This document shows, one piece after another, positions 23,432-26,341 of a DNA stretch of 64,000 nucleotides (positions are counted from its first letter, which is position 1; the number at the start of each line of letters is the position of its first letter). The position numbers were made by a program, and so were the translations under genes. The stretch comes from a bacterium SCSIO 12827. Lineage in GTDB: Bacteria; Pseudomonadota; Alphaproteobacteria; Rhodospirillales; Casp-alpha2. Location: assembly GCA_024397995.1 (NCBI GenBank), contig CP073746.1, forward strand, positions 1,488,001 through 1,552,000. The letters are read 5' to 3'. The notes below the pieces were generated by a model. It had not been told where the DNA came from. It searched no databases and saw nothing but the letters and a program-made list of their open reading frames with translations.

Positions 23432-23568
23432 TCCAATCCCACCGATCCTCTTGGCGCCATGACCTGATCCGGTAAACCCGTTCTGGGTCCTCCCAAGGCG
23501 CGTTCTCGCCCTAATTGAAATATTTTCCCATGCGCGTAGGATGTGTAGGCGCTTGGGGAGTAAGTGCA

Positions 23569-25731
23569 ATGCGGATGACGAAATTGCCAGGGATGGGTAT
23601 GCGGGAGCATATGCAACCGGCGCGGATCATGACGTATTTGCGGATCACCGCCGCCTTTGGTGTCACTTACGTTCTGATGACGGCGGCCGCAAGTACCACT
23701 TTGGCCCAATCGACGCTGGAACGGGTCAAGGCACGAGGGGCCGTGACCTGCGTAACGTGGCAACAGCCCTATTTCTTTTCGCATTACGGCAAGGGGGGCG
23801 GCAGAGGCATGGACGCCGACTCATGCCGGGCCGCGGCCGCCGCAGTGTTCGGCGATCACAAGCGGGTCAAATATGTATTGGGCCAGAGATCCTTCAACGA
23901 AATAGTGGTTGCGGCGGTGCAAGGTGAAATCGATCTCATTCCCAGAGTGTCCTGGCAATCAATTCAAAAGTTCAAAAAAACCATGCGTCCGACGTCGCCC
24001 GTGTTCATGGATGGTCAGGGCATTCTTTTGTTCGACCCTGGGCAGCGGGGCGTTTCAGCCGATCTCGGCGGCAAGACAATCTGTACGTATTCGGGGCACA
24101 AGTATGAGAAACGTCTGAGAGATTATCAGCAGACGTCGGGAATGGCGTTCAAGATTGACAGCAAATTGTTCGAAAGCCGCCAGTTGTCGCGCACGGCCGA
24201 TACCCTGTACAGCGCGGTCAAGGATGGCAAGTGTGATGCGTTCAGCGATAGCATCCTTCGGCTGGACGAGATCGCGCGCAAGGTTGATCTTAACGCCTAT
24301 GTTTTCAACGACACGGTTGCCGTCGATGCCATGGTTCCCGCCGTGGGGCGCGGTGACAATGATTGGGCCAGCGTTGTCTCCGGCGTGGTGAACATGATGG
24401 CGTTGGCGGATCAACTGGGATGGTCCGACAAAGAGAAGACCTTCACGAGAAGACACTACTTCGGCGTGTCGCCTAAGGAAGTCGTGTCGTGGATATCGAG
24501 CGCGGGAAAGAAATTCGGCCTGTCCGGCGAATGGGCTTTCGATGTGCTTGGGCAGGTGGGTAGCTATCAATCCACTTTTGCGGCGAATTTGGACGGCTTG
24601 CGCGGGTTCCCGCTCGTCAGGCGGATCAATGCCGTGGCCACCGAAGGCGGCTTGCGGTCGGCTGGTGTTCCCTTGGAGCGGTCATGGGAGTTGAAGGCGA
24701 TCCCGAAAGACGTCTCTCCTGCGGTGCGGACGGTCTTTGTTGCGACAGATCGCGTCATTGACACCGAAGCCGACCGCTTCCGCTTTAAGTTCAAAAGCGC
24801 GCATGCTGACAACATCAGGTTGGCAAAAGCCGTCGTGGCCTTGCGCAAGACCACGAAAGAGGCGTCGGGCGATATCTGGGGCCTAGTGTATCAATCGATG
24901 GATGCAGACGGCATTCCTGAGATCGGGCTGCGTGATACAGAAAGTTCCCTTTACGGTGCGGCCTCCGACTTTTTCGATGATATTCGGCAAGCGCTTCAGG
25001 CCTTGAAGAGCGCGCCGAATTATAAGGCACCAGCAATTCTGGTCTACGTCCACGGGTTCCAAAACTCCTTCGCCAATTCCGTCGAGACCATGGCTCGGAT
25101 GATGAGCAACATAGGGTTTCCTTGCGTCCCCGTCGTATTCGCCTGGCCGACGAACGGCGGCCCCAATTACATCGCCCAACGGGACCGTGTCGCCGATGCG
25201 GGGGATGCCCTGTCGGTCTTTCTGCAGACGTTGCACGCGGAGTTCAATGGCGCGGACGTCCATGTGCTGGCCCATAGCCTGGGCAGCGCCGTTACGATCA
25301 AGGCATTGCATGAACTGCAGAAGCAGGGGGCCGCGCCGGTCAAGCTCTCGGAATTGATCTTCGCGGCCGCCGACCATCCGCCGGGCGATTTCTACAACAC
25401 GGCGAAAGAGACCGTTCAGGGGCACATCGTGGACAGGGTGACGTCCTATGCATCATCGAATGACAGGGTATTTGGAGGACGCGGAATCGTCACCGCAAGC
25501 CCGCGCGCTGGCTATATCGAGAACGGTCGGATGCGCCAGTCAAAATGGGTGGATTCAATTGATGCATCTGATGCAATCGGCGAATGGAAAGGGCATTCGA
25601 ATATCTTCAAGTCGCCCTATTTGCTGTTCGATTTTAGCGAAGTCCTGGCCGGACAACCCATGACCCTCCGCAGCGTGACGCTCGAATGTGCGTCAGAGAC
25701 GGGTTATTGCCGGGTACGCCAAGTGAAGTGA
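23569..25731 (+). CDS. Fusion of AapJ-like amino-acid-binding protein and DUF900 alpha/beta hydrolase
   Basis: A 720-residue exported protein. The ATG at 23569 follows GGGGAG by eight bases; the signal peptide ends near residue 47 (TLAQS). Residues about 48-375 match periplasmic general amino-acid-binding proteins: TLERVKARGAVTC, MDADSCRAAAAAVFGD, MDGQGILLF, EWAFDVLGQVGSY and INAVATEGGL. Residues about 385-680 match the DUF900 hydrolase family: VFVATDR, LVYVHGFQNSF (His495), and AHSLGS with nucleophile Ser570; Asp602 and His676 are reasonable triad partners. Base composition is lower in GC than that of its neighbours, which hints at transfer. No ABC permease is adjacent. A periplasmic esterase guided by an amino-acid-like ligand domain is inference. 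Confidence 0.85.
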   Translation: MRMTKLPGMGMREHMQPARIMTYLRITAAFGVTYVLMTAAASTTLAQSTLERVKARGAVTCVTWQQPYFFSHYGKGGGRGMDADSCRAAAAAVFGDHKRVKYVLGQRSFNEIVVAAVQGEIDLIPRVSWQSIQKFKKTMRPTSPVFMDGQGILLFDPGQRGVSADLGGKTICTYSGHKYEKRLRDYQQTSGMAFKIDSKLFESRQLSRTADTLYSAVKDGKCDAFSDSILRLDEIARKVDLNAYVFNDTVAVDAMVPAVGRGDNDWASVVSGVVNMMALADQLGWSDKEKTFTRRHYFGVSPKEVVSWISSAGKKFGLSGEWAFDVLGQVGSYQSTFAANLDGLRGFPLVRRINAVATEGGLRSAGVPLERSWELKAIPKDVSPAVRTVFVATDRVIDTEADRFRFKFKSAHADNIRLAKAVVALRKTTKEASGDIWGLVYQSMDADGIPEIGLRDTESSLYGAASDFFDDIRQALQALKSAPNYKAPAILVYVHGFQNSFANSVETMARMMSNIGFPCVPVVFAWPTNGGPNYIAQRDRVADAGDALSVFLQTLHAEFNGADVHVLAHSLGSAVTIKALHELQKQGAAPVKLSELIFAAADHPPGDFYNTAKETVQGHIVDRVTSYASSNDRVFGGRGIVTASPRAGYIENGRMRQSKWVDSIDASDAIGEWKGHSNIFKSPYLLFDFSEVLAGQPMTLRSVTLECASETGYCRVRQVK

Positions 25732-25747
25732 TTGGTCTCTGCGTGCG

Positions 25748-26341
25748 TTAGGTCGGCTCTGGAATTCGACTTGTCATCGCTTTATCGATCAACACCGCCG
25801 CCGCCGTCTTGGCGACCGCCGCCGCGCGCGTGCGGTTCTGAGATACTTGGGCGGTGACGGTGGCACCCTCCAGCACCATGGCCAGTTCTTCAGCCAGGCT
25901 GGCCGGGTCAGGTGCTCCCATGCCCCGGCACTGTTGCTCGATATAATCGCAGATCATGGATTTGAACGCTTTGCACTGGTGCCGCACGGGGGTGTCCGGG
26001 TCGGAAAATTCGCCGACCGCGTTGATGAACATGCAGCCGTAGAACGAATTGTCCTCGAACCAGGCGCGGGCGGCGTCGAACACGGCAAGAAGCCGTTCCT
26101 TCGGCGTGGTTCCGCGGCTTTCGACCTCGCGCATGAAGTTATTGCGGAATAGGCCGTCATATTTGCGAAGGGCTGCCAGGATCAGTTCATCTTTGGACCG
26201 GAAGTGGCGGTACAGCGTCTTTTTCGACACCCCCGATACGGCCAGGATCCGGTCGATGCCCGTCGCGTGAAAGCCGTGTTTGGCGAACAGGTCGATGGCC
26301 GTGTCGATCAGTTGTTCGCGTCTTTGAGAGTCGCTCATCAT
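25748..26341 (-). CDS. TetR family transcriptional regulator
   Basis: A 197-residue repressor with an N-terminal HTH (residues about 8-55: LIDTAIDLFAKHGFHATGIDRILAVSGVSKKTLYRHFRSKDEL). The ligand domain has four cysteines (103, 123, 131, 138), so sensing an electrophile or oxidant is possible but is inference. It is divergent from the AhpD-like and P460 genes. One copy of an 18-base dyad lies just before its start codon and two better copies precede the AhpD-like gene, which indicates autoregulation plus control of the neighbours. It is convergent with the fusion gene upstream. Confidence 0.9.
   Translation of the reverse strand: MMSDSQRREQLIDTAIDLFAKHGFHATGIDRILAVSGVSKKTLYRHFRSKDELILAALRKYDGLFRNNFMREVESRGTTPKERLLAVFDAARAWFEDNSFYGCMFINAVGEFSDPDTPVRHQCKAFKSMICDYIEQQCRGMGAPDPASLAEELAMVLEGATVTAQVSQNRTRAAAVAKTAAAVLIDKAMTSRIPEPT

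Follow-up and report, generated by a model that had tools for sequence, protein, structure and literature searches.

Among the proteins that bacteria export, solute receptors are some of the most common, and they are usually interpreted as parts of transporters. In MltF, engagement of the N-terminal domain by muropeptides triggers the switch to the active form, according to the sections of PMC10746161 drawn on here. The function of DUF900 domains is stated as unknown in the portion of PMC11878206 that we used, and such a domain terminates some brown-algal ROCO proteins, presented as candidate immune receptors in the title of PMC11378527, of which an excerpt was used. In one class of conflict systems, caspase domains always occur with an alpha/beta-hydrolase neighbour, as described in the part of Kaur et al. 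(PMC7159879) considered here, a paper whose main text does not name DUF900. Here we analyzed a gene in which a receptor-like domain and a DUF900 hydrolase share a single chain, located in a 64,000-nucleotide stretch of bacterial DNA that we refer to in its entirety as the window.

The fusion gene (23569..25731, forward strand, as are all of its parts given below) encodes 720 amino acids, in which a signal-peptide-like start precedes first a family-3 solute-binding domain and then a DUF900 hydrolase, as delimited from the frame and from profile and PDB matches. Translation of this stretch yielded 720 codons and zero stops on one contig. The ATG at 23569 is accompanied by GGGGAG eight bases upstream; the longest version of the frame, from a TTG at 23515, would give 738 amino acids, and alternative in-frame starts include ATG 23611, with GGGAG three bases upstream. 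By sequence inspection, residues 21-46 (23629..23706) read like a Sec signal peptide, with probable cleavage after TLA (residue 46). The family-3 (AapJ-like) domain then spans residues 47-365 (23707..24663), followed by the junction and the hydrolase module's N-terminal portion (residues 366-486, 24664..25026, placed by alignment, with ATDR at 392-395) and by the DUF900 alpha/beta-hydrolase core (residues 487-706, 25027..25686). Both halves have nearly the same composition (GC, 0.572 and 0.573; GC3, 0.701 and 0.685), and the empty site found in two relatives, described below, lacks the whole gene. We therefore reject a misassembly or a pair of distinct genes, on the strength of the single frame, the single contig, the equal GC of the halves and the clean empty site, and the exported-type fusion proposed in the initial annotation, with its signal-peptide-like start and both domains matched, is genuine.

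The binding half scored 16.4 bits against PF00497 (SBP_bac_3), under the gathering score of 26.4, and TIGR01096 matched residues 39-336 with an E value of 9.4e-8, although its 31.9 bits fall short of the cut-off (256.35). A Brucella ovis receptor (PDB 4z9n) matched residues 48-369 (E 3.4e-21). When the binding half was modeled alone (pTM 0.76, mean pLDDT 73.4), the same structure, whose title reads "with glutathione bound," came first in Foldseek (E 1.5e-19, TM of about 0.7), while the MltF structures 4p11 and 5uh0 occupied ranks 47 and 48 among the 50 matches listed. In the full-length model the binding half was poor, unlike the hydrolase part, probably, we think, because rows holding only DUF900 and rows holding only a receptor had been aligned together.

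We compared the binding half with 10 stand-alone AapJ-like proteins of the same taxonomic family and found that 37 of the 78 columns invariant among them are kept in the fusion, while 41 are changed. The TWTxxRD signature reads SWQSIQK in the fusion (residues 128-134, 23950..23970), amounting to T130Q, R133Q and D134K; in addition, R112 is replaced (R112I), and GTTTE, present in most of the 10 relatives, appears as GHKYE. We take the lost signature arginine to be the residue that holds the carboxylate of the ligand in family-3 receptors. Loss of TWTxxRD makes an amino-acid ligand doubtful, and, judged from these residues, a plain alpha-amino acid is probably not what the domain binds. What had been described as an AapJ-like amino-acid-binding domain is therefore supported in fold and homology by 4z9n, but its presumed ligand is weakened by the 41 changed columns and by the loss of TWTxxRD and R112. 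Our best idea is that the domain may sense or hold a ligand; the lost signatures would also be compatible with a domain that has given up binding altogether.

The hydrolase half matched Pfam DUF900 (PF05990) over residues 487-664 with an E value of 2.9e-24 and 86.3 bits, against a gathering score of 20.5. In an alignment of the fusion protein with 144 DUF900 relatives, G496, D602 and D632 were kept in 144 of 144 rows and H495, S570 and H676 in 143 of 144, the H676 column (25594..25596, catalytic base) showing one gap. An intact serine-hydrolase site was thus recognizable from the residues HG495-496, S570, D602 and H676. The Ser570/Asp602/His676 triad suggested initially remains plausible, with the nucleophile Ser570 in AHSLG (25276..25278) and the histidine both well supported, but Asp602 (25372..25374) does not stand as the sole acid: Asp632 (25462..25464), which follows the next predicted strand in the full-length model, is equally conserved, and both therefore stay candidates for the catalytic acid. 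Starting at residue 467, pLDDT values in the hydrolase part of that model were mostly 85 to 96, a few blocks having 68 to 83, and this part matched Bacillus LipA (TM 0.69 on the target) as well as lipoprotein lipase, pancreatic lipases and cutinases. The predicted fold resembles that of a lipase or esterase, and the DUF900 half presumably hydrolyzes an ester or a lipid. In the tree, the DUF900 domain of the window sits on a long branch and was left unplaced. Two other DUF900 proteins (L074 and L141) have a short N-terminal part that, by eye, resembles an acyl-carrier-type domain.

The full-length protein used as a query gave matches at an E value of 1e-20 or better in 34 of 48 same-family genomes, the window's own genome (G000) included, and in all matching genomes except G000 the match covered the binding half only. 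The hydrolase half, searched at 1e-5, was matched in 6 of 297 genomes of the order, 25 of 385 of the class and 82 of 398 of the phylum, these three draws overlapping and each including G000. Both halves were matched in only two of 72 loci (L001 and L012), both of which are the window's own gene; the remaining matches to the hydrolase half in the class and phylum draws were judged by frame length alone. No full-length relative of the window fusion was found in the genomes and collections searched, nor did a scan of the genome-contig collection with the full window protein return one. Long frames around AapJ-like matches in three genomes (G859, G848 and G576) turned out, by eye, to be plain receptors behind unrelated frame sequence.

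The gene occupies an inserted segment of 2,339 bp (23435..25773). At the same site, two of the 7 other same-genus genomes compared have short intervals only: 42 bp in G028, between flanks that are 94.9 and 91.2% identical, and 27 bp in G032, between flanks that are 89.6 and 88.5% identical. In G030, G031 and G034 the left flank matches, but the gene does not and the right flank is different, and the gene's own stretch had no match in any of the 7 genomes. The GC content of the insert is 0.571, against 0.598 to 0.684 in 11 other window genes measured, the two genes next after it (0.598 and 0.599) lying near the insert value. Since the empty site in G028 and G032 makes gain in this lineage the simplest reading, and since the equal GC and similar GC3 of the halves indicate that the unit probably arrived already fused, the fusion was most likely gained in this lineage as a ready-made single-gene unit, loss elsewhere being an alternative. 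Horizontal acquisition, first suspected from the lower GC content, is supported much more strongly by the empty site in two relatives.

The SBP_bac_3-DUF900 gene stands alone at its locus. No integrase gene was present among the neighboring genes read and no tRNA within the window; the repeats around the insert were imperfect, short and chance-like, and the insert scored at chance level when scanned for promoters and terminators. A phage or plasmid gene was likewise unsupported, with no match among 50,697 phage records at 1e-5, none of 444 matching plasmid records reaching 80% coverage, no plasmid DNA match and no match of the fusion protein to PHROG families at 0.01. The gene left of the insert (window:22679-23431) is kept in same-genus genomes and has no Pfam match at 0.001; on the right, a TetR-family gene (window:25748-26341) has its last codons at the edge of the insert, and the C-terminal tail that it encodes is unlike the one in G028.

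Although no second SBP_bac_3-DUF900 protein was found, the search for other fusions suggested by the initial annotation did reveal chains joining DUF900 to other receptors. Reading of long frames uncovered four DctP (PF03480)-DUF900 chains, namely, L020 (G423), L024 (G382), L136 (a Rhodoplanes piscinae MAG) and L159 (a Geminicoccaceae MAG), and two TctC (PF03401)-DUF900 chains (L134 and L142, from two Curvibacter species), each above the Pfam cut-offs for both domains. DUF900 is thus joined at its N terminus to three receptor families: SBP_bac_3 in the window, DctP in four chains and TctC in two. L020 and L024 were single in the sampled genomes of their orders, with a full-length match in 1 of 23 and 1 of 4, respectively. 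Another scan of the genome-contig collection matched at least 594 stretches, including at least 549 relatives; Pfam searches on the best 80 of these relatives detected TctC in two and DctP in two, and SBP_bac_3 was absent among the 25 of 33 Pfam families listed for these 80 proteins. Others among them carried TPR, HEAT, carboxypeptidase-regulatory-like or C14 domains. Finding DctP or TctC in just 4 of the 80 indicates that the enzyme does not need a receptor.

In the Curvibacter pair, dN/dS was 0.270 for TctC and 0.071 for DUF900, showing that both domains are constrained, and L134 retains the PYAAGGVTD motif. The DctP fusions, set beside two DctPs that stand alone, have lost DGQEN in four of four cases and the signature arginine in three of four. 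A first tree placed the TctC pair (SH-aLRT 93) and L159 (96) in different groups, and a single clade for all seven receptor fusions was only barely rejected (p-AU 0.045) in a smaller, quick tree with the group named after the architectures had been seen. The joins with DctP and TctC suggest that bacteria may have built exported enzymes carrying a binding domain more than once. We found no description of receptor-DUF900 fusions in the open-access papers searched, and they apparently form a recurrent, undescribed class.

The caspase (C14) domain, which may occur with DUF900, was encountered in 9 of 80 DUF900 loci, once in the same chain (L130) and eight times in the fetched flanks, always over the Pfam cut-off. 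This compares with 0.42 expected (P 8e-10), a guide only, given two caspase queries, non-independent loci and a background density taken from other genomes. None of 80 viral-collection receptor loci had a C14 match, in an unmatched comparison of 291 kb versus 771 kb and of other organisms. Across 45 genomes, 69 DUF900 and 113 C14 matches formed two pairs within 5 kb against 0.28 expected (P 0.03), a weaker test than the 80-locus count. These genomes had been chosen mostly for their DUF900 matches. One pair lies 2.7 kb apart in G418, and the other shares one open frame of 1,072 amino acids in G687 (G687:C25:66407-69403); in L130, both domains are in one chain (L130:1510-5058). In L159, a caspase-FGE-sulfatase gene ends about 90 bp upstream of the DctP-DUF900 gene.

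A C14 gene adjoins the DUF900 gene in four records, which we take to be alphaproteobacterial, being divergent in L132, L151 and L175 and in tandem in L145. G015, which belongs to the same taxonomic family as the window's genome, has, on the reverse strand, an 888-amino-acid protein (L271, G015:C19:2000-7500) that combines C14 (residues 26-242, E 7.1e-43) with an AapJ-like SBP_bac_3 domain (residues 369-579, E 8.8e-12); this chain has a signal peptide and, by eye, a second receptor-like tail. The window's genome itself contained no C14 match, and PADLOC returned 0 families for the window protein at E values up to 0.01 and none for five other receptor fusions.

With about even confidence, we propose that the window protein is an exported, probably periplasmic DUF900 serine hydrolase governed by an N-terminal Venus-flytrap domain that descended from an amino-acid-uptake receptor. 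The evidence that we count for this reading comprises the domain matches, the intact catalytic residues, the folds, the three receptor families, the constraint on the TctC pair and the absent transport partner. The protein would be exported, probably to the periplasm; binding of a small ligand would then probably close the flytrap, and closure, by analogy with MltF, could alter access to the DUF900 hydrolase or its activity. It is from the architecture, its recurrence and the constraint that we infer control of the hydrolase by a ligand.

The absence of an adjacent permease, pointed out initially, was borne out: at E values up to 1e-5, the window's genome has its closest PF00528 match about 140 kb from the fusion gene, and we rejected a role as a transport receptor on account of this distance. 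The same genome has a stand-alone AapJ-like receptor at G000:C1:1770132-1773630, adjoined by two permease matches. That the fusion is an ordinary transport receptor to which a hydrolase became attached by accident has next to no probability: the binding half does resemble the AapJ family, but besides the missing ABC permease its pocket signature is gone, and fusion to DUF900 recurs with other receptor families. Recurrence also bears on the idea that the binding domain retains or enriches a substrate or product of the attached hydrolase, giving a bifunctional scavenging enzyme without regulation, because a single substrate would predict one receptor type, not three receptor families on one hydrolase family, and the lack of an ABC permease beside the gene adds to this. 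Even though the nearest fold, 4z9n, holds glutathione, an amide, and there are precedents for exported fusion enzymes in which one domain is considered receptor derived (PMC10520331, in the part used), we hold such substrate capture to be fairly unlikely. The binding half might alternatively be a leftover of which only the fold persists, as a spacer or a protein-docking surface, with the hydrolase working alone. The 41 changed columns and the motif losses in the DctP fusions favor this degenerate state, whereas the still-predicted binding fold of the window protein and the purifying selection on the Curvibacter TctC half, with its motif kept, speak against it, making it quite unlikely.

The links of DUF900 to caspase-fold proteases, fused or adjacent, and the exported caspase-receptor chain in a same-family genome underlie a further reading, in which the protein would act on the envelope as the effector of a network for conflict or cell death, its hydrolase attacking a lipid or other envelope component upon a foreign or danger signal at the receptor, in parallel to exported caspases that bear a receptor of the same type. 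The 80-locus count, the shared G687 frame, the G015 chain, the caspase-FGE gene next to L159 and the sporadic distribution of the fusions are in line with it, as is the caspase/alpha-beta-hydrolase pairing described in the used part of PMC7159879. The silence of that paper's main text on DUF900, the lack of a PADLOC match, the presence of C14 within 5 kb of only 2 of 69 DUF900 matches in the 45 genomes, and a window genome that has no C14 match and in which the fusion gene stands alone weigh against it, and we consider this role very unlikely. A broader scheme, improbable when taken as a whole, would have interchangeable receptors (SBP_bac_3, DctP and TctC) control a few catalytic domains (DUF900 and C14) in an undescribed class of exported effectors whose genes move as single units, the receptor having left transport behind and an envelope signal that it reads releasing a lipase on the cell's own or a neighbor's envelope; that signal might be a wall fragment, a thiol peptide or a metabolite derived from a phage or a rival. 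The joining of three receptor families to DUF900, and of the receptor type seen in the window to a caspase, would imply a second use for receptors, as controllers of exported enzymes, that is not confined to MltF-like cases. A receptor-fused member would also offer a handle on a widespread family, its receptor hinting at the trigger.

Compared with described proteins, the fusion shares the fold and about 24 to 30% identity over its binding half with AapJ-type receptors and 4z9n, which stand alone, whereas the fusion is without TWTxxRD and without a permease partner. With DUF900 hydrolases it has in common a score above the Pfam cut-off and the conserved catalytic columns, but the window member sits on its long branch, and some others carry TPR, HEAT, carboxypeptidase-regulatory-like, C14, DctP or TctC domains. 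Bacterial conflict systems are alike in pairing caspase-fold and alpha/beta-hydrolase genes (PMC7159879, in the part used), as in the DUF900-C14 links seen here, and differ in their NTPase cores, the window gene being alone in a genome with no C14 match. Exported chorismate mutase-cyclohexadienyl dehydratase fusions are similarly rare and exported, with a domain thought to be receptor derived (PMC10520331, as far as used), but there this domain is itself enzymatic and DUF900 is not involved. MltF resembles the fusion in being exported, as judged for the fusion from its sequence, and in having a family-3 binding domain at the N terminus and a catalytic domain at the C terminus, a domain order that we take to be the same in both. 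The alignment with 4p11 comprises 311 columns, all in the binding half, and none of the six Pfam families matched by the fusion at E values up to 1 is an SLT domain: where the catalytic domain of MltF is a lytic transglycosylase, that of the fusion is a serine hydrolase.
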